Shown: one piece after another, positions 5,821-36,726 of the stretch
Numbering within the stretch: position 1 is the stretch's first letter
Layout: every line of letters begins with the position of its first letter
Origin: a virus
Virus record (IMG/VR): IMGVR_UViG_3300038954_000119
Span: 1-37,510 of that record
DNA length: 37,510 bases
Direction: 5' to 3' (one strand)
Translations under genes and position numbers: made by a program
The notes under the pieces: model-generated
What the model saw: only the letters and a program-made list of their open reading frames with translations
Told to the model about the DNA's origin: nothing
Database searches by the model: none

Positions 5821-7148
5821 TGTCTGAACAAGAAGGAGCACTGACGGTTGTAGAGGGGCAGCTAGTCGAAGATGGGGAAGTCATTAGCGTCGATAACCTC
5901 TATGGCGACGACCAACAAGTAGGGGCATTGGCCGAGCGGGTGCGAATGGTGGCGCCCTGGGTCAAGTACAAGAGCAACGGCCAGTGGCGAGAGATGAGCA
6001 AGAAGGAAGTCTCCCTGGTCATCCGCCGCTGCATGGCCCTGGGCGTAGATCCGCTGAATCCGCACGAGGTCCAGATTTGGCGCGATCACCACGGCGTCCA
6101 CTTCCAGCTCGCCTACACGCTCTTGACGCAATGGATGCGCGACGTGCAAGGCGGGCACACAGAACCGCGCTACTACCGCCTGTCGAAAGAGGAAAAGGAG
6201 CGGGAAGGGATTAGCCCCAACGATAAAGCGGTGCACTGCGAGTTCGTGATGCTATCTGATATGGAGCATATCGCGCAGATGATGGACTTGGGGTTCGACC
6301 CACAGGATGCGCGGGACAGTTTCACCGTCAAAGGCCTGGGTGTCGTAGATGCTGCTGAGTGGAGTGGCAAGTATTTCGCCCCTAACGGGCGCTCGAAGGC
6401 GTGGAAGCTCCGCAAGCGGGCCTACGTTGACGCGGTTCGCAAGCGATTCGGCACGCCGTCGCGCTCGGAGATCGTCAAGCTGCGGCGCGAGCGTGGTGAG
6501 AAAAAGCTGTTACCGGAGGACTACCAGGGCACCGACAATCTGATGGCGCAAGACCGGCACCTACTGGCCCTGGAGCATGCCAAGCACCGCGAAGAAGAAC
6601 AGGACGGGCGAGATACGGCTATTCTCGCTGGTAGTGACGCTAGACGTGACCAGCTTTTCAAAGGTGAAGGTGATAACGGCAACGGGAGCGGAAATAAGCC
6701 CGAAGCAGATCCAGAACCGCAGGCAGAGAGCGAACCGGAGCAGGCGACCACCAACGACAACGGGAGCAACAACAATGGCCGGCCCTACGATCCGCCCAAG
6801 CTACAAGAGATCATCGGCAAGAGCATTGAAGACAAGCGCGGCAAGGGCTTCACCTTGGGGCCGAAGCTCTCCAACTATCGCGGCGCAATGAACGCCAGTC
6901 TTGAGCTCTGCTTCGCTGGCGACAAGCACTCCGACCAGAAACGCCACCTCGTTCTTGAGTATTTGACCGGCAAGGCGTCGAGCAAGGAGATGGACGACGC
7001 CGAAGTGAAGACCGTCCACAAGTGGCTGAACGCCAAGCCGGACGATGACACCGGCGAGTGGTTCCCCGATCCGACTGCTGAGATCGAGGCGCAAGCCGTG
7101 GCGAAAGTGGCGGCGAAGAACGCGGGACAGACAGAGTTTCCTATCTGA
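5821..7148 (+). CDS. RecT/Bet-like single-strand annealing protein (probable)
   Basis: The real start is ATG 5821 after AAAGGGGGATCA, giving about 442 residues. Residues about 55-210 resemble the RecT/Bet annealing-protein family. An ALGVDPLNPHEVQIWRD segment is followed by a strand and helix (FQLAYTLLTQWMRD), a middle segment with CEFVM, and a GRSKAWKLRKRAYVDAVRKRFG basic stretch. A low-complexity Glu/Asn/Pro linker (about 285-330) leads to a helical C-terminal domain that may be a separate module. It would promote strand annealing in phage recombination. I see no linked exonuclease beside it. The family call rests on pattern memory, not a search. Confidence 0.6.
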
Positions 7149-24717: not shown

Positions 24718-24933
24718 GTGATAGGGTTTCATCAGTGGTGGAAGAAGCATTATGAGGAATATGCAAAGTTGCCACCGCGACAGTTGGCGCTTGAGGGGTG
24801 GATAGCAGGTAGGGTACCGGGGCTTGTATTGGCGAAGACGGTGAAGCGCCTCGAAGCCGAAAACGATGAACTCCGCGCCGAATGCACGCGGTTGTATGGT
24901 GAGTGCAACGAGTTGGAACCGGTAGAGGACTAA
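24718..24933 (+). CDS. Hypothetical protein with C-terminal coiled coil (71 aa)
   Basis: GTG 24718 follows AAGGGGGTAGG. MIGFHQWWKKHYEEYAKLPP is followed by a hinge and a coiled coil (VKRLEAENDELRAECTRL). Its stop overlaps the next start. No family recognised. Confidence 0.45.
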   Translation: MIGFHQWWKKHYEEYAKLPPRQLALEGWIAGRVPGLVLAKTVKRLEAENDELRAECTRLYGECNELEPVED

Positions 24934-27005
24934 TGCCCCAGCCTACACCCCGCGTCTTGCGCCTTGCTAACCAGTTTCGCCGCCAAGCATTGCGGCGGGA
25001 GAGGGAAGCTGCGAACGCGCTGGTTCGCTTCTACGGCGAGACGTGGCGGCGGCTTTCGAGCGACATCCAGGATTTGCGGAATACCATCGAGCAGATGACC
25101 GAGGCTGGCGAGGAAATCACGAAGGGCACAGTCACCCGCCTGGAGCGGCTGAAGGCGATCCGCAATCAGGCGGCGAAAGAGGCCAACAAATTCAGCAAGT
25201 TTGCCGACGCGCAGATAACGGCGGGGCAACGGGAGGCGATCAAGGCGGCGGAGCGGAACGGGCACGATCTTATCCGCGCTTTCTTTCCCGACGACGTAGA
25301 CCTGGACGAGCTGGGTGTGACATTCTTCCGTATGCCAAGTGAGAGCGTCGAGAATTTGGCCGGGATGCTCCAGAACGGGGCGCCGCTCCGAGAGCTACTG
25401 GACGAGGCTGTGGGGGAAGCGTCGGAGGCCTTCGGAGAGCGAATGGTTACGGGGCTGGCATCGGGTTGGAATCCGCGCAAGCTGGCGAGGGAGTTGCGAA
25501 AAGAGTATGGAATGGGCTTGACGCGGGCCTTGCGGATCTCCAGGACGGAGCAGCTACGGGCCTACCGCGAGACCCAACGGCAGGTGTATGATGAGAGTGA
25601 CGTGGTGACGGGGTGGGAGAGGCACGCAGTTGGGGATAGCCAGACGTGTATGGCGTGTTTTGTAGATTGGAAAGTGCCCATTCTAACCAGTGAGGGATCT
25701 AAGCCAATATCCAAGGTTGGAGTGGGTGATTTAGTATTGACGCACAGGGGGCGCTATCGTAAAGTAACGAAGCTATATCGTCAGAGCGTGGGCAGTGCTC
25801 CTATCGTGACAATTCGCGCTGATTTACCGGGTGGCGTGAATTGGGATAGTTTAACAATGACAGAAGAACACCCCGTGCTGACAAATCGAGGCTGGATGCG
25901 AGCAGATGAATTGACCACTAATGATAGATTGGTGGTAATGACTCAGCCGTGTGAGGTTTGCGGAAAGCAGATACCGCATTGGCATTATGGCACCAAAACG
26001 TGTTCTAGGACTTGTGTTGGCAAGCTGGCTGCTGAGGGATTGCATTCTAACGAAGAGGCCCATAATCGCGCCGTCGAGAATATGAAAGCCACACACCACA
26101 AGATGATGGAGCGCGGGGAGCACCCATTTCAAGATTCGGAAATACGGAGGCGGGCACAGCGCAATGCCCTACGTGCAAATAGCCGTCTAACGTCGAGTAG
26201 AACTGAAGGCAAGTTGGCAGAAGCATTTGACGCGCTAGGATTAGAATACGAGACCCAGTATCCCATACAGAGCCATTACAATGAAAGCAACAATCGCCAG
26301 TATTGGTACTATGCTGACTTTGCTTTTCCAGAGGCGGGTATTGTGGTTGAGGCTGATGGGGAGCCTTGGCATTCTTGGGATGATGACAGAATAGAACACG
26401 ACAAGTTGAGGGATGAACGACTTGAGGCACAGGGATGGGATGTGCTTCATTATTCTGGAAGCGAGATTTGTAAAGACGCTGAGGGGATAGCACAGCAGGT
26501 TAAGCGTCTTGTAATGAATCATACTGGACAGCATGGCACAACGTTAGTGGCAATTAAGAATATTCAGCGCGGGGTGCGGCATCCCCCCTCCGAGGATTTC
26601 AAAGTAGTGCGCTACAATCTTGAAGTTGAAGAAGACCATAGCTATGTTGCCAAATATGCAGTTGTTCATAACTGCATTGCCAAGGACGGCGAGTTCTACG
26701 ACACGAAAAGCGCGATGGACGATCACCCCAACGGGCGCTGCTATATGCTTCCTGTCACCAAGTCCTACGAAGAGCTTGGCATAGATGCACCGGAGCCGGA
26801 GTTCCAGAGAGAGACAGCGCGGGAGTGGTTCCGTAGACAGGATGAGGCTACGCAACGCGAGATGATGGGCGACGCCAAGTATGAGGCGTGGAAGGAAGGG
26901 CGTTTTGCCCTTGAGGACATTGCCAAGGTCAATCGGAGCGATGTGTGGGGGGATAGCTGGGTGCCGAAGAGTTTGAGGGAGTTGGTAGGCAATGCCGGTG
27001 ATTAA
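24933..27005 (+). CDS. MuF-like minor head protein, interrupted by an intein
   Basis: ATG 24933 overlaps the upstream stop. Without the insert (residues 242-580) the host protein is 361 residues: a helical N-terminal half, then the MuF/SPP1 gp7 core with TGLASGWNPRKLARELRKEYG, RTEQLRAYRETQRQVY and, across the insertion, DSQTCMA|CIAKDGEFYDT, followed by DDHPNGRCYMLPVTK. The CxxC and HPxGRC residues are the conserved metal-binding core of MuF proteins, and the intein sits between the two Cys of the CxxC. Splicing should give an intact head-morphogenesis protein, which acts inside the prohead near the portal. Confidence 0.9.
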   Translation: MPQPTPRVLRLANQFRRQALRREREAANALVRFYGETWRRLSSDIQDLRNTIEQMTEAGEEITKGTVTRLERLKAIRNQAAKEANKFSKFADAQITAGQREAIKAAERNGHDLIRAFFPDDVDLDELGVTFFRMPSESVENLAGMLQNGAPLRELLDEAVGEASEAFGERMVTGLASGWNPRKLARELRKEYGMGLTRALRISRTEQLRAYRETQRQVYDESDVVTGWERHAVGDSQTCMACFVDWKVPILTSEGSKPISKVGVGDLVLTHRGRYRKVTKLYRQSVGSAPIVTIRADLPGGVNWDSLTMTEEHPVLTNRGWMRADELTTNDRLVVMTQPCEVCGKQIPHWHYGTKTCSRTCVGKLAAEGLHSNEEAHNRAVENMKATHHKMMERGEHPFQDSEIRRRAQRNALRANSRLTSSRTEGKLAEAFDALGLEYETQYPIQSHYNESNNRQYWYYADFAFPEAGIVVEADGEPWHSWDDDRIEHDKLRDERLEAQGWDVLHYSGSEICKDAEGIAQQVKRLVMNHTGQHGTTLVAIKNIQRGVRHPPSEDFKVVRYNLEVEEDHSYVAKYAVVHNCIAKDGEFYDTKSAMDDHPNGRCYMLPVTKSYEELGIDAPEPEFQRETAREWFRRQDEATQREMMGDAKYEAWKEGRFALEDIAKVNRSDVWGDSWVPKSLRELVGNAGD
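25656..26672 (+). mobile_element. Intein (339 aa) with Vsr/EDxHD-like endonuclease domain
   Basis: Splice blocks are all present. The first residue is Cys (CFVDWKVPILTSEG, block A) followed by VGVGDLVLT; block B is TMTEEHPV with the Thr-x-x-His pair; block F is YNLEVEEDHSYVA; and block G is AVVHN with the penultimate His and terminal Asn, then extein Cys. The middle has a zinc-ribbon-like CEVCGKQ...CSRTC and, from about residue 424 of the whole protein, a Vsr-fold domain: E425, YADF with D462, EADGEPWH with E473, D475 and H480, then HDKLRDERL. This matches DUF559/EDxHD homing nucleases rather than LAGLIDADG. All catalytic residues seem intact. Confidence 0.92.
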
Positions 27006-28935: not shown

Positions 28936-30051
28936 ATGGCTACGCTAGGATTTGCTGATCTGAAGGACACCAGCCTCCCCTCTCTTTGGGATGCTGCTGA
29001 ACTCAAGAAAATTGAGCTGGCCGATTCGACCAGCTTTGAGCAGATCGTCCAGGAAGTGCAGGTTTCGCTCGGCGGGTTGAACACCGAGCTTTTGGGCCTG
29101 CCGCATTACTCCGGCATGTTCGCCGTTGACGACGAAGCCGCGATGGAGTACCCGATTGGTGTCTCCAACGGCGTCGAAGAGGCGACGGAGTACGGTATGC
29201 CCGACCCGCAGCGCGGGGCAACCACGGGGCACATGCTCCCGCTGAAGCAGTGGGACAGGGCGATGGGTTGGACGATGATGTACCTCCGCAAGCACCGGGC
29301 CAAGAAGCTCGATGCTGACGTGCGAAGCGCAATCACCGACGCCCGCAATCACTTTCAGAAGCGGCTCTTGACCCGCTTCTTCTCCAGCTCCGGTAATACC
29401 GTGGGCAGCACCAGCAACGCTGACGTGCCGCTGGCCGACGGCGGGAGCACTGATTCCAACTACGTCCCGCCCGATTCCCCGGAGGGGGAGAGTTTCACCA
29501 GCTCCCACGACCACATCCTGGACACGGGCGACCTGACGGATGACGCTATTGGGATCACCGACCTGGAGTATTGCGTCGAGCACCTCCAGGAGCACGGACA
29601 TCAGGGACCGTATGAGCTTATCGTCCCCCGTGGCGACCTGAGCTCCTGGACGGACGTAACGGGTTGGAAGAAACCCGAATGGCCGGGGATTGTGTATCAC
29701 TCTTCGGCGGTGGAACGGGCCAACATCGCCGGCATCGAGAATTACGCCGGCTATATCGAAACTCAGTATGGCGTGTGCCGCGTTTGGGCGACGCCCCGGC
29801 TGGAGAGCAGCGGGAACTACTGGGGCCTGTTCAAGAGCTACGGCGCGGGCGATCCGCGCAACCCGCTCCGGCTCCGCATTGACCCCAGCTACGGGTTCGG
29901 CTGGAACATCGTTCCCGGCAATTGGGTCAACTCGCCTGTTGAGCTCCTGCTGATGTACGCAGAGTTCGGCGTGGGTATCGGTGAGGACCGCACCAACGGC
30001 GTCATTGCCTACACGGGCGGCGCGTCGTGGAGCGACCCGACGATTAGCTAG
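28936..30051 (+). CDS. Major capsid protein
   Basis: ATG 28936 follows GGGAGGCTAGACG. The 371-residue protein comes straight after scaffold and decoration genes, the place of the HK97-fold major capsid protein. Blocks include LPSLWDAAELKKIELADS, a helical segment (MGWTMMYLRKHRAKKLDADV) of the spine type, NHFQKRLLTRFFSS, and a late GPYELIVPRGD. No N-terminal prodomain is obvious. Confidence 0.9.
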   Translation: MATLGFADLKDTSLPSLWDAAELKKIELADSTSFEQIVQEVQVSLGGLNTELLGLPHYSGMFAVDDEAAMEYPIGVSNGVEEATEYGMPDPQRGATTGHMLPLKQWDRAMGWTMMYLRKHRAKKLDADVRSAITDARNHFQKRLLTRFFSSSGNTVGSTSNADVPLADGGSTDSNYVPPDSPEGESFTSSHDHILDTGDLTDDAIGITDLEYCVEHLQEHGHQGPYELIVPRGDLSSWTDVTGWKKPEWPGIVYHSSAVERANIAGIENYAGYIETQYGVCRVWATPRLESSGNYWGLFKSYGAGDPRNPLRLRIDPSYGFGWNIVPGNWVNSPVELLLMYAEFGVGIGEDRTNGVIAYTGGASWSDPTIS

Positions 30052-30106: not shown

Positions 30107-30892
30107 ATGAGAGAAAATCTATATAGGGTGTTTGTGGTGGCGCTGTTGGTGGTGTGCGTGGGGCTTAGTGCGCTCAACGCCTTTGTGCCGCCAGAGCAAC
30201 CAGAGGCACGCGGGGCCGGCGATTTCGGACAGTATGGCTCGATTCAGATTGTCAGCAACGGCAACCTGAAAGTCGGCAACGGCACGCCGGACACGACGCT
30301 GAACGGAGAGGACGCCTATGTCGAGGGCACGTTTGAGGGCGACGGCAACGCAAACCTCGACGGCAATCTGGACGTTGACGGCACGACCAATCTGGATGAC
30401 CTGGACGTAGACGCTTCTGGCGAGATTGAGATTGACGGCGGGTTGACCGACTTCGGCGGCGGAACGTGCGGTGTGGCCGACGGTGATAACGACGTGTGCA
30501 TCGCTGCGGTGCTGGAGGTTGACGGCGAGACGGAGCTTGACGGTGCGTTGGATGCTGACAGCACGGCGAACTTTGCAGGCGCGGTGACGTTGCAAGGGGC
30601 ATTGTATAGCTCCTTTACCGACCTCGCGGTGTCAGACGGAGATACGATTACGCCAACATACACGACTTATGCACTTGATACTAGCGGGGCCGTGACAATT
30701 ACACTCGCGGCATCGGCACAAGAAGGCCAGCTATTAGTGCTTGTGGGTGATGACAGCAACACCATCACGATTAACGACACCAACCTACGCAGTAATGATG
30801 GTAGCGCCCAGACATTGGGACAGTACGATGCCTTGATGTTTGTATACCAGGACAGCGAGTGGATCGAGATTAGCGACTCGCCGAATAGCTAA
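30107..30892 (+). CDS. Signal-anchored beta-repeat protein (261 aa)
   Basis: ATG 30107 follows CGGAGGAACT. Residues about 6-28 are a signal peptide or membrane anchor (YRVFVVALLVVCVGLSALNA). The rest is built of short Asp/Gly/Asn repeats such as NLDGNLDVDGTTN and LEVDGETELDGALDAD, which usually build a beta solenoid, and a C-terminal Thr-rich domain (FTDLAVSDGDTITPTYTT). Such repeats are seen in surface and tail-spike-like proteins. A signal peptide on a gene between capsid and connector is odd for a virion protein; it may instead be exported during lysogeny or infection. Confidence 0.6.
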   Translation: MRENLYRVFVVALLVVCVGLSALNAFVPPEQPEARGAGDFGQYGSIQIVSNGNLKVGNGTPDTTLNGEDAYVEGTFEGDGNANLDGNLDVDGTTNLDDLDVDASGEIEIDGGLTDFGGGTCGVADGDNDVCIAAVLEVDGETELDGALDADSTANFAGAVTLQGALYSSFTDLAVSDGDTITPTYTTYALDTSGAVTITLAASAQEGQLLVLVGDDSNTITINDTNLRSNDGSAQTLGQYDALMFVYQDSEWIEISDSPNS

Positions 30893-31428
30893 TGAAAACC
30901 TTCGCCTATTGCTGCGCGTCGTATCGGGAAGCCGTGAGGAAGGCGGCGGGTGTGTTGCCGATGTGTTCCCCGCCCCACACCTCCAAGAGCTTCTGGATTC
31001 CGACGCTGCTTGAAAACCGCGATCTGTTGTACTTCGACCTACACGGGCATGCGGGTGACGCGCAGTGGTATGGCGACAACGCGCTGGTGGCGCTCAGGGC
31101 TTCGCAGATCCGTGGGGCCGACCTGGGCGGCGCTGTGGTGTTCGCCGCCAACTGCTACCTGAGCGATGACGATTCACCAATGCTCGACGCGCTGCTGGAT
31201 GCTGGCGCGTCGTGGGTGGTGGGCGGCCAAGGGCCGAATTATGGAGCGAAAGGAGAGCGACTGGTCGGCGCGAATCTGCTGGGTATGTGGTTCCACCGGC
31301 TGCTGGAGTTAGGCTTCGACGTGTTGGATGCGCTGCGGCTGGCGAAGGCAAGGATGCTGGCGAGTCGCTGGGTATGGATGCAGGCAAACAGAGATGCGAG
31401 GGCGTTTCGTGCGTACCATCGCATCTGA
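30892..31428 (+). CDS. CHAT/caspase-like (clan CD) putative protease (178 aa)
   Basis: ATG 30892 overlaps the previous stop. Three family blocks stand in the right order. First YFDLHGHAG gives a His-Gly (His51). Then VVFAANCYLSDDDS gives the candidate nucleophile Cys88. Then a run AGASWVVGGQ, and a late MWFHRLLELGFDVLDALRLAKARML, which is the C-terminal helix pattern of CHAT domains. Together these are the clan CD cysteine-peptidase hallmarks of CHAT and caspase-like enzymes. At 178 residues it is a minimal single-domain protein without fused repeats. It stands in a phage late operon, where no such protease is usual. Substrate unknown; capsid or tail maturation, host attack and anti-defence are all open. 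Activity is inferred from motifs alone. Confidence 0.7.
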   Translation: MKTFAYCCASYREAVRKAAGVLPMCSPPHTSKSFWIPTLLENRDLLYFDLHGHAGDAQWYGDNALVALRASQIRGADLGGAVVFAANCYLSDDDSPMLDALLDAGASWVVGGQGPNYGAKGERLVGANLLGMWFHRLLELGFDVLDALRLAKARMLASRWVWMQANRDARAFRAYHRI

Positions 31429-31503: not shown

Positions 31504-31878
31504 ATGAGCGTTGAAAAGCTATTGAACAAGGGCTGGAGTGACACACATCGCTCCATCGACCTAGACGAAAGTGCGGAGTCCATCAAGGTTAGCGCGGGGC
31601 GCCTGGGCGGGCTCGTGGTGCTGAATATGAGTGCGTCCGTGCTTTACATCAAGCTTTACAACAAAGCAAGCGGCGATGTGACGGTGGGCACCGACACGCC
31701 GAAGATGACGATTCCCGTACCGACCAATGGCGACACCAATGGCAGTGGCTTTGTGATTAACTTTGGCATACGGGGCATTGAATTCTCCACAGCAATCACG
31801 ATTGCGGCAACAACCGACCTTGAGAGCAACGGTGCGCCAAGTGCTAATGATTGCATTGCTCATGCCTGGTATGAGTAG
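31504..31878 (+). CDS. Phage structural-type beta protein (124 aa)
   Basis: ATG 31504 follows GGGAGGACTA. The pattern SASVLYIKLYNKASGDVTVG followed by TPKMTIPVP, GFVINFG and a final AHAWYE is common in small phage virion or appendage proteins with a jelly-roll-like beta sandwich. Exact role unknown. Confidence 0.55.
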   Translation: MSVEKLLNKGWSDTHRSIDLDESAESIKVSAGRLGGLVVLNMSASVLYIKLYNKASGDVTVGTDTPKMTIPVPTNGDTNGSGFVINFGIRGIEFSTAITIAATTDLESNGAPSANDCIAHAWYE

Positions 31879-33865: not shown

Positions 33866-34291
33866 ATGGCATTCACATACGATGACAGCCTGAGCACAGA
33901 CCGGGACAAGGTGCGGCGCTGGTTGGGTGACGTAACGGAGAATAGCGGGCCGCTTCCCGATGATTCCAATTTCTCCGACAACGAGATAGCGGGACTCATT
34001 GACGCCGAAGGGACGTGGCAACGGGCGGTTGCGGCTGGCTTTGAGGCATTGGCGTCTGCGTGGCGGCGGTATCCGAGCTTCAAGGCCGATGGGCTGTCAT
34101 TGTCACGCTCCGATATTGCGGATGGATACGCAGAGCAAGCGGTGGAGTGGCGCGAGAAATATGGGCGGACAAAGGGCGTCAACGTGGCCGGGATCATCAA
34201 GCTGGACGGATACAGCGATGACGTGACCAGCGACGACGTGGATACCGATACCGAATATGAATCGAGCTTTGAATACGTGCGGTTGAAGTAA
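33866..34291 (+). CDS. Head-tail connector/adaptor protein (probable)
   Basis: ATG 33866 follows GCAGTAGGAGTAGATT. The start DDSLSTDRDKVRRWLGDV, then FSDNEIAGLIDAEG and a helical AVAAGFEALASAWRR, is the pattern of short phage head-tail adaptor proteins (gp6/gp15-like). These normally follow the capsid gene at once; here five genes stand between them. It should bind the portal and close the DNA gate. Confidence 0.72.
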   Translation: MAFTYDDSLSTDRDKVRRWLGDVTENSGPLPDDSNFSDNEIAGLIDAEGTWQRAVAAGFEALASAWRRYPSFKADGLSLSRSDIADGYAEQAVEWREKYGRTKGVNVAGIIKLDGYSDDVTSDDVDTDTEYESSFEYVRLK

Positions 34292-34310: not shown

Positions 34311-35528
34311 ATGAGGACGTTGTGGATAGGGGCGGCTCCGTGGCAGAACACGGGATACGGAAAACCGATGCGCTATCTCGTTCCACGCATCATCGAGGCC
34401 GGTCACGAGGCGATGATAGCACCGTTTTTCGGGTACAGCGGGCCGCCGCTTAAAATGCCCCTGGGCGGAGAGATGGTACAAATGCTTCCGCCGGGGCACG
34501 AAGGGCACATTAACAACATCATCGACTTTCACGTGCGGAACTGGGGCATCGACGCGGTGATAAGCCTCTGCGACGTGTGGATCTTCAACGATTGGGGCGA
34601 GAAGGGGTTTGTGTGGCTTCCGCGCTTCCCCATCGACACGCACCCTATTAGCAAGCCGACGCTGGAGGCGATCAAGGGTTGCCATACACCGTTGGCGCTG
34701 ACCAAGTGGGGGCAGCAGGAGCTTATTAGTGCGGGATGGGAAACGGCGAAGTACATCCCCCACGGCGTTGACTGCGACATCTACAAACCGCGTGACAAAG
34801 CCGAGTGCCGGGAGGCCGTCGAGCTTCCAGAAGATGCGTTTGTGGCTGGGATGGTAGCGGCCAATTCGAGCGAGCCGAGCCGAAAGTCATTCCCCGAAGT
34901 CGTCCAGGCGTGGCGATTATTCAAGGAGTCGGGCGGCGAGGGCTATTTGTACCTCCACACGGCACAGGTGCCGGAGAACCGCCACAAGAACGGTGTGGAT
35001 TTGCGGCAGATCATCGAAACGATGGGCCTGACGTATGCGGCAATGAACGAGCAGCGGGGGAAGGTGCTTGAGGCCGACGTGCTCTTTTCGTCGCAGTACA
35101 AGCTGGGAATCGAGGCATACGATGACGAGTGGCTGGCGAAACTCTACAACGCCTTCGATGTACTCTTGCTCCCCTCTCGCGCTGAAGGATTCGGGATTCC
35201 GCTCATTGAAGCGCAGGCGTGTGGCGTTCCCGTCGTATCCAACGGTGTGACCTCAATGCCAGAGCTCACCTTCGCCGGGGAGTGCCTAGAACCGCTTCAG
35301 TGGGCCTGGAGCACCAGGAAAGAGGGCGTCAAGGACGGCGGTTGGCGGGGCATTGCCGACGTTGACGCGATTGCTGAGGCGATTGATTGGGCCGCAAACC
35401 TGGACGATGATGAGCGAGAAAATCAGGCGCAGTTGGCGCGGTGCGGGGCGTTACAATTCGATTGGGAGGCGCTAATAGAGCACAGGTGGTTGCCATTAAT
35501 GGAGGAATTGAGCGAATGGATTGCATAG
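34311..35528 (+). CDS. Glycosyltransferase, GT-B fold (GT4-like, 405 aa)
   Basis: ATG 34311 after GGGGGATCT. The C-terminal donor-binding domain has PSRAEGFGIPLIEAQACGVP, the E-x7-E motif of family 4 retaining glycosyltransferases; the N-terminal half has an acceptor-type Rossmann domain (HGVDCDIYKP near the linker). It would move a sugar from a nucleotide donor, perhaps to virion proteins, phage DNA or the host surface. It starts a run of four sugar- and methyl-transfer genes and overlaps the next by 13 bases. Confidence 0.9.
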   Translation: MRTLWIGAAPWQNTGYGKPMRYLVPRIIEAGHEAMIAPFFGYSGPPLKMPLGGEMVQMLPPGHEGHINNIIDFHVRNWGIDAVISLCDVWIFNDWGEKGFVWLPRFPIDTHPISKPTLEAIKGCHTPLALTKWGQQELISAGWETAKYIPHGVDCDIYKPRDKAECREAVELPEDAFVAGMVAANSSEPSRKSFPEVVQAWRLFKESGGEGYLYLHTAQVPENRHKNGVDLRQIIETMGLTYAAMNEQRGKVLEADVLFSSQYKLGIEAYDDEWLAKLYNAFDVLLLPSRAEGFGIPLIEAQACGVPVVSNGVTSMPELTFAGECLEPLQWAWSTRKEGVKDGGWRGIADVDAIAEAIDWAANLDDDERENQAQLARCGALQFDWEALIEHRWLPLMEELSEWIA

Positions 35529-36076
35529 ACAAAGCGTTCAGTATCCGTTGTATGCTGGGCCGTGACGAGGCCCAATTCCTCTACGATTGCGCGAGGGAAG
35601 CCCCTGATGGTGAGTTTGTGGAGCTTGGGCCTTACTTTGGGGCATCGACCATCATCATCGCGTCGGTGGTGAATGAGAGGGGCTTACCTTTCACGACTAT
35701 CGACCAGTTTACGGGCGACTTCGGAACGCAGAATTACGACGCCTCAAGCCCTGAAATTCTGCGGCAAAACCTGAGGGGCACTGGTATTGACCCGCTCCCC
35801 TGCATCATCGAAGGCGATAGCGCTGACGTTCCCGGCGGGTTGGGCCTTCTATCCTTCTTATTTGTGGATACCGACCACAACGCGGCGACGCTGGAACCGG
35901 AGTTGGACGCTTGGCTCCCGTTAGTGATGTGCGGCGGCGTGGTGGCACTCCACGACTACGACTGGCCGGGGCGATTCCCGGAGATGATCGAAGTCATTGA
36001 CCGGCGATTGGGTGACAGTGACGAATGGGAACACATTGGGCTGGTGAATCATCTAGTGGCGTTCAGGCGAGTATGA
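35516..36076 (+). CDS. Class I SAM-dependent methyltransferase (186 aa)
   Basis: ATG 35516, inside the end of the previous gene. The Methyltransf_24-type pattern is clear: FVELGPYFGASTIIIASV for the SAM-binding loop, then FLFVDTDHN and an LVMCGGVVALHDYDWPG block. Such enzymes in sugar gene clusters methylate sugars or small molecules. The place between two glycosyltransferases suggests methylation of the glycan being built. Confidence 0.85.
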   Translation: MDCIDKAFSIRCMLGRDEAQFLYDCAREAPDGEFVELGPYFGASTIIIASVVNERGLPFTTIDQFTGDFGTQNYDASSPEILRQNLRGTGIDPLPCIIEGDSADVPGGLGLLSFLFVDTDHNAATLEPELDAWLPLVMCGGVVALHDYDWPGRFPEMIEVIDRRLGDSDEWEHIGLVNHLVAFRRV

Positions 36077-36726
36077 GTGAGATCACCGCCGTTTTGGTCA
36101 CGCACCGCCGGCCCGACAACATCCAGCAGATCGTGGATGCGCTTAAACAGCAAACCGTCGAGCCGGATCTGATACTGATAAACAATTGGGATATGGCGGC
36201 GTATCAGGTGGAGCGGGCGGCTTTTGTGCCGTGGAACGCGGGACCGGTGATGCGCCACGTTTTCGCTACCTACGCAGAAACCGAGTGGGTGATGGCGCTG
36301 GACGACGACCTTAGACCTGCTGATGCTGAGTTTGTTGAGGATGCGTTGAGGTTGGCGAAGAAGCGGCCCGGCGTGATTACGTGCGCCTTCGGGCGGCACT
36401 TGGGCCAGTCGGAGCCATACTACCGACCACGTAACGAGTTCGGGCGGGTAGCGATTGCCCTGGGGCGGATGATGATTTTTAGGCGCGAGCTGCTGGACAA
36501 CGTGGGCCTGCCGCCGATGCGCTTCCCCTGGGCGTTCAGGAGTGATGACATTTGGTTGAGCCTGGAGGTTGGCAGGGGTAAGCCTGTTCATTGGGCAGAT
36601 ATGGGATTGAGCAAGCGGTTGGTCGATATGCCGGAGGGGGGTCCAGAAGTGGCGCTATCGCTGCAAAAGGAACACAGCGCGGGACGAGAGGAAGCCTGTC
36701 GGTGGTGGTTGGAGAATCGGCAATGA
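36073..36726 (+). CDS. Glycosyltransferase, GT-A fold (GT2-like, 217 aa)
   Basis: ATG 36073 overlaps the methyltransferase stop as ATGA. It starts ITAVLVTHRRPDNIQQIVDA, the nucleotide-binding strand and helix of GT-A enzymes. The metal-binding DxD is seen as ALDDDLRPA (Asp77-79). The later FPWAFRSDDIWLSLEVGRG fits the acceptor or catalytic-base region. It adds a sugar to an unknown acceptor. Confidence 0.88.
   Translation: MSEITAVLVTHRRPDNIQQIVDALKQQTVEPDLILINNWDMAAYQVERAAFVPWNAGPVMRHVFATYAETEWVMALDDDLRPADAEFVEDALRLAKKRPGVITCAFGRHLGQSEPYYRPRNEFGRVAIALGRMMIFRRELLDNVGLPPMRFPWAFRSDDIWLSLEVGRGKPVHWADMGLSKRLVDMPEGGPEVALSLQKEHSAGREEACRWWLENRQ

Follow-up and report, generated by a model that had tools for sequence, protein, structure and literature searches.

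The window analysed here is the whole stretch of 37,510 nucleotides of viral DNA (IMG/VR record IMGVR_UViG_3300038954_000119, positions 1 to 37,510), and it comes from a tailed phage of Chloroflexota-type bacteria. An open reading frame at 30892-31428 on the plus strand starts with ATG, encodes 178 amino acids and carries the blocks LHGHAG (His51), AANCYL (Cys88), AGASWVVGGQ and, toward the C-terminus, LELGFDVLDALRLAKARM. An earlier sequence-only reading had called this product a CHAT/caspase-like protease, and its coordinates, His51 and Cys88 were all found exactly as claimed. The overlap it described with the gene of a signal-anchored repeat protein was also found: the protease ATG shares one base with the upstream stop codon (TAATG; stop 30890-30892), whose gene encodes a 261-aa protein with an N-terminal hydrophobic segment. 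The features of the locus are as follows.

28936-30051, plus strand: major head protein, upstream context (phrog_3990, E 1.1e-21)
30107-30892, plus strand: partner protein and putative substrate, 261 aa, with an N-terminal membrane anchor, beta-repeats and a C-terminal phage-depolymerase-type beta-sandwich (PF25692 Phage_depo_C; adjacency across the family)
30128-30184, plus strand: hydrophobic anchor of the partner (residues 8-26) with a positive N-terminal flank (hydropathy 2.62; charge asymmetry across the family)
30197-30214, plus strand: putative cleavage site QPEAR↓G of the partner, P1 = Arg35 at 30209-30211 (aligned D-class motif; P1 Arg in 14/14)
30659-30862, plus strand: Phage_depo_C domain of the partner, residues 185-252 (PF25692, E 2e-6, above cut-off)
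30892-31428, plus strand: predicted clan CD (caspase/gingipain-fold) cysteine protease, 178 aa, a single catalytic subdomain (AlphaFold2, Foldseek, homologues, C25 link)
31036-31038, plus strand: Asp49, two residues before the catalytic His, candidate S1-pocket residue (MI/H = 1.00 with partner P1; equivalent of RgpB Thr209)
31042-31044, plus strand: predicted catalytic His51, directly after strand 45-49 of the AlphaFold2 model (invariant, 45/45)
31153-31155, plus strand: predicted catalytic Cys88, directly after strand 82-85 of the AlphaFold2 model (invariant, 45/45)

The gene had been placed between capsid and connector genes. This placement is right only in a loose sense: the major head protein lies upstream, the downstream neighbour (31504-31878) encodes a soluble product of unknown family, and the gene at 33866-34291, which belongs to phrog_1732 (function unknown), lies several genes further on. 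The doubt that such a protease is a standard phage late gene was judged right.

The AlphaFold2 model, built on ten relatives, reached a pLDDT of 90.9 and a pTM of 0.90. The first eight PDB matches found by Foldseek were SAVED-CHAT, Craspase TPR-CHAT and Csx29 (E-values of 8.8e-7 for SAVED-CHAT 8tl0, the best, 2.5e-6 for 8d9f and 1.5e-5 for 8eey), and DdvA, separase, gingipains K and RgpB, and caspase-8 ranked below the CHATs. In clan CD, the catalytic His and then the Cys stand at the C-terminal ends of the neighbouring strands Hbeta3 and Hbeta4 (PMC4357240). The model fits this arrangement, since His51 follows strand 45-49 and Cys88 follows strand 82-85, and both residues are invariant in all 45 aligned members. 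The structure prediction gave a caspase-like fold rather than another one, and it confirms at the model level that the window protein has a clan CD caspase-like fold with a predicted His51/Cys88 dyad. Gly52, beside the catalytic His, is present in the window protease and in 43 of the 45 relatives, with Ser in two; Arg replaces it in a few of the R-class proteases described below. Among viral predicted structures, the single Foldseek match below 1e-3 was an uncharacterised myovirus protein of similar fold (BFVD A0A8S5MXG5, Myoviridae sp. ctWaE18, E 1.9e-4), which may mark another phage lineage that has a protease of this clan.

The window protease alone had no match in Pfam, PHROGs or plasmids, and its matches among PDB sequences and phages were at chance level; the PDB profile matches to triosephosphate isomerase, MscS and penicillin-binding protein (E about 0.5-1) were taken as chance. 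Profile-guided scans identified relatives in about 55 IMG/VR contigs and in two Chloroflexota genomes (L010/G001, an Anaerolineales MAG, and G012); one additional scan for the family yielded zero new contigs. Dozens of viral contigs and these two genomes hold full-length relatives of the window protease (40-56% identity) with His51 and Cys88 invariant, and the open reading frame is therefore more than a chance one.

The profile searches proposed for the CHAT and C25 families turned out differently from the structural search. The CHAT profile PF12770 had no match in the window protein and only one among the 32 relatives, at E 0.016; the peptidase C25 profile PF01364 was matched neither by the window protein nor by the 31 aligned relatives. 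Homology to proteins that do pass the C25 profile was found instead. The family profile was run on 400 genomes sampled from Chloroflexota, the phylum of G001, and 31 of them gave matches, comprising two phage-type genes and about 30 long open reading frames (counted at E <= 0.001) with E down to 7e-25. Six of the long relatives were scanned; 4/6 scored above the Pfam C25 cut-off and 5/6 had TPRs. The blocks common to the phage proteases and these relatives read SPP..ETF..W..G..LLYFNLHG...WYG...FSEACYG. The cellular proteins have an additional N-terminal part, and the 178-aa phage protease spans only the catalytic subdomain. The shared blocks and the C25-passing homologues indicate that the phage protein is a free-standing catalytic subdomain of the C25-like kind, and at the sequence level it shares ancestry with the catalytic half of the gingipain-like TPR-C25 proteins of Chloroflexota. 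Since these are its nearest cellular kin in sequence, the name CHAT is only approximate: the clan CD fold and the CHATs as nearest solved structures stand, and membership of the CHAT family by profile does not. The phage protein, which is predicted to act as clan CD proteases do, thus belongs to that clan and falls outside both the CHAT and the C25 profile in their present form. The TPR-C25 proteins themselves usually occur once per genome in about 7% of the sampled Chloroflexota genomes, and also at L105 and L107-L116. Two of them, L109 and L114, have SEAG or SEAS at the position of the Cys, and judging from these residues such copies look catalytically dead.

In nearly every readable contig, the protease gene has a neighbour, adjacent or nearly so, that encodes an N-terminal hydrophobic segment followed by beta-repeats. 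This partner lies upstream of the protease in most lineages, whereas most phages of the R class have it downstream, and the two genes usually overlap or touch. Some partners end in a Phage_depo_C beta-sandwich, among them the window partner with the E-value given above and others at E 3e-11 and 6e-10. The anchor is lipobox-like in 14 of 50 partners, and its N-terminal flank is more positive than its C-terminal flank in 47/50. These lipoboxes and flank charges make it probable that the anchor is real and that the ectodomain faces outwards. When the same gene was sought in related phages, as had been suggested, the protease was kept beside its anchored partner, and the capsid genes nearby belonged to at least three major head protein families. 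The partner was unreadable in L134 and L138, and L033 and L052 were left without a P1 label because their partners are broken by apparent frameshifts. The protease of L033 (around 5947-7045), beside its split partner gene, has Gly two residues before the His and Glu two residues before the Cys.

Just outside the partner anchor, with a median distance of 13 residues from the hydrophobic core, a short motif is conserved; its register was set by conservation, and therefore the P1 residue named here is a hypothetical assignment. The motif differs with the protease residue two positions before the catalytic His (residue 49 in the window protease). With Asp at this position (D class), partners carry PVAR↓S, and Arg is found in 14/14 partners and in 8/8 second anchored proteins. 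With Lys (K class) the motif is IVAL↓G (Leu in 13/13), with Arg (R class) it is YQEM↓S (Met in all 12 distinct partners), and with Asn (N class) it is VEAK↓A (Lys in 2/2). L010, with Met at this position, has VEVL↓G. The window partner belongs to the D class with QPEAR35↓G. The putative P1' residue is almost always small. Every occurrence of the K, R and N patterns followed a hydrophobic segment and stood in a phage of the matching class (L010, of the M type, was counted with K); the D pattern is loose, with many background matches. R-class contigs that were found after the rule had been fixed carried the predicted Met site in 4/4 contigs and 6/6 anchored proteins. By its conservation and placement, the anchor-proximal motif behaves like a cleavage site; that it is cut at all, and at exactly this bond, we infer.

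For the mutual information, the P1 labels were taken from the sequences of the partners. Among the protease columns, only residue 49 fully predicts the partner P1 (48 sequences; MI/H 1.00; next best column 0.73). Clan CD enzymes are strict for P1, and their S1 selectivity is usually ascribed to alpha1/L1, L4 and L5 (PMC4357240) rather than chiefly to the position two before the His, which speaks against the role of residue 49 proposed here. In RgpB, Thr209, two residues before the catalytic His, forms the base of S1 together with Val242, two residues before the Cys (PMC9559808). From the covariation and this equivalence we infer that residue 49, Asp49 in the window, is an S1-pocket residue that selects P1. 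The pairings of Asp with Arg and of Asn with Lys make chemical sense; those of Lys or Arg with Leu or Met do not obviously do so. The tree shows four changes of residue 49 and three of P1, the P1 letters are few and clade-bound, and phylogenetic independence is low; because there are only these 3-4 changes, independence of the covariation is not demonstrable and a formal phylogenetic test was not significant. The ectodomains, however, are common to different classes: 160 cross-class BLASTP pairs were obtained with up to 72% identity, such as a D and a K partner (72% over 193 aa) or the window partner and a K partner (59% over 106 aa). Despite this sharing, the motif always matches the local protease.

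A second family of anchored proteins, here called b, has no detectable similarity to the first partner family and carries the same type of motif, which reads PVAR↓S in the D class and YQVM↓S/G in two phages of the R class. Elsewhere in the K, N and R classes the b proteins are soluble and start about 7-8 residues beyond the predicted cut. Since these homologues exist without a leader, the leader looks, by sequence comparison, like a removable tether on a protein that also exists tether-free. The b model is all-beta (pLDDT 91.5); a significant match in the PDB was absent, the best E being 3e-3 among matches that include tailspike and carbohydrate-binding folds. At L041 (616-1092), the hydrophobic leader of the b protein ends in an AxA-like signal-peptidase site (GPSQAQVSW) that replaces the Arg motif, and this may be a third way of shedding the leader.

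The fold, the invariant dyad, the gene adjacency, the anchor, the motif, its covariation with residue 49 and its presence on two unrelated anchored proteins were computed directly. The interpretation that we prefer is that the protease probably cuts the membrane-tethered partners of its own phage once, outside the anchor, behind a P1 residue that differs by class and is recognised by the S1 pocket. The substrates would be fibre-like or virion-like proteins of the phage, here the product of 30107-30892. A single cut just outside the N-terminal anchor, in the window after Arg35 in QPEAR↓G and selected by Asp49, would free the soluble beta-rich part. The protease has no signal peptide and the site lies outside the cytoplasm, and enzyme and substrate would therefore be separated until the membrane is breached. 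Speculatively, the cytosolic protease would meet the outward-facing site at lysis or holin opening, and the shed fibre or head proteins would join virions, or debris would no longer trap progeny; equally speculative is the shedding of a receptor-masking coat. The wider form of this proposal, that exchangeable N-terminal leaders of tether plus cut site on several unrelated virion-like proteins, together with a soluble clan CD protease, allow a phage to display structural proteins of its own on the host membrane and to shed them class-specifically, that one pocket residue sets an Arg/Lys/Leu/Met code across the family, and that this processing system was previously undescribed, has in our estimate an even chance of being correct.

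Release at lysis or holin opening would solve the topology most simply, and its main rival keeps the same enzyme and site but moves the cut to the cytoplasm before export, where it would set the share of membrane-displayed and internal protein (dual localisation). The signal-less protease, the soluble homologues of the second substrate that start just past the cut in sister phages, and the location of the substrate genes next to capsid genes are all consistent with such a scheme. Export signals, however, work during or soon after translation, and the lipobox anchors imply real export, while a cytosolic pool has no support here; we consider cutting before export unlikely.

Two further explanations, which we regard as improbable to a similar degree, dispense with cutting of the motif. 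According to the first, the motif is bound but not cut, and the anchored protein is a surface sensor for a cytosolic effector, for example in superinfection exclusion or a late abortive switch. CHAT proteases do serve as switched effectors in defence, as described for Craspase (PMC9729208), and covariation with a pocket residue is compatible with binding as well. Against binding alone stand the invariant catalytic dyad, the resemblance of an invariant residue followed by a small one to P1-P1', the position of the motif across the membrane from a cytosolic effector, and the motif on a second, unrelated anchored protein. PADLOC defence models also gave 0 matches among 32 relatives, whose neighbours are head genes and anchored fibre-like proteins. 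A defence role was rejected on these results and this gene context, and the constant linkage to anchored fibre-like proteins leaves both the Craspase-like role and the block of a host caspase-like defence, two ideas of the sequence-only reading, unsupported.

According to the second, the motif merely hitchhikes with co-inherited adjacent genes, and the protease targets a host protein or blocks a host defence. The classes are indeed near-clades, and the tree holds few changes. Co-inheritance alone nevertheless explains the data poorly, because the ectodomains recombine freely across classes with the match intact and because the match is seen in two unrelated protein families. That the enzyme is the head maturation protease of these phages, as its gene beside major head genes of several families might suggest, is very improbable and was rejected, since sister phages also have canonical ones (L006, phrog_80, E 4e-49; L007, phrog_976, E 6e-25), the protease matched none of the maturation-protease families in PHROG, and its constant neighbour is an anchored protein and not a capsid protein. 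The earlier suggestion that it could mature virion parts comes nearest to our preferred cutting of tethered, fibre-like substrates.

Clan CD, C25 and CHAT enzymes are already known, and the phage protease can be compared with each. With the Chloroflexota TPR-C25 proteins (about 800-1000 aa) it shows homology across the catalytic subdomain (per-genome E-values as low as 7e-25), the SPP..ETF..W..G..LLYF.LHG...WYG and SEACYG blocks and the same order of His and Cys, and its candidate specificity residue corresponds to an S1 residue of RgpB. It differs by the absence of TPRs, of the first C25 subdomain and of a secretion signal, by predicted P1 residues that include Leu and Met besides Arg and Lys, and by being phage-encoded and linked to anchored substrates. 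The CHAT proteins (SAVED-CHAT, Craspase TPR-CHAT/Csx29) are its best solved-structure matches, but it fails the CHAT profile and has no sensor domain and no CRISPR or CBASS context. Family C80, the autoprocessing cysteine peptidase domains, was the sole clan CD family with a hydrophobic (Leu) P1 in a 2015 review (PMC4357240). This Leu resembles the predicted P1 of the K class, whereas the phage protease is proposed to act in trans on separate gene products. The head maturation proteases phrog_80 and phrog_976 share its late-gene position beside major head proteins but are of another family, and a single phage can hold both kinds.

The exosortase/PEP-CTERM, rhombosortase/GlyGly-CTERM and sortase/LPXTG systems each have one cognate enzyme and several unrelated substrates with a short motif by a hydrophobic segment; their tags are C-terminal, and their enzymes are membrane or surface proteins of other folds. 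The phage system similarly pairs one enzyme with unrelated substrates bearing a short anchor-side motif, but its tag is N-terminal and its enzyme is soluble, of clan CD and phage-borne. An incomplete literature search found no description of a phage-borne, single-subdomain clan CD member with covarying, tethered, virion-like substrates. If the proposal is true, tailed phages possess a pathway dedicated to anchoring and then releasing fibre or head proteins, a step that is absent from standard assembly schemes, run by a caspase/gingipain-fold enzyme of a kind usually discussed for cell death, defence and virulence. In addition, its members would form a natural experiment on the specificity of proteases, in which several states of one pocket position are matched to four substrate residues, and would offer many natural protease-substrate pairs that are testable together.

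Two other regions of the window were recorded. The gene after the portal (SPP1 gp6-like), at 24933-27002, has an intein-like HINT insertion (PF14890, E 1e-6) and a DUF559-type endonuclease domain (PF04480, E 8e-9), and by these domain matches the insertion is likely an intein with a homing nuclease in a head protein. The late region at 34311-36726 holds a group 1 glycosyltransferase and a methyltransferase-like gene at 35441-36076, and a glycosyltransferase-like open reading frame at 36025-36726 was spotted there by eye.
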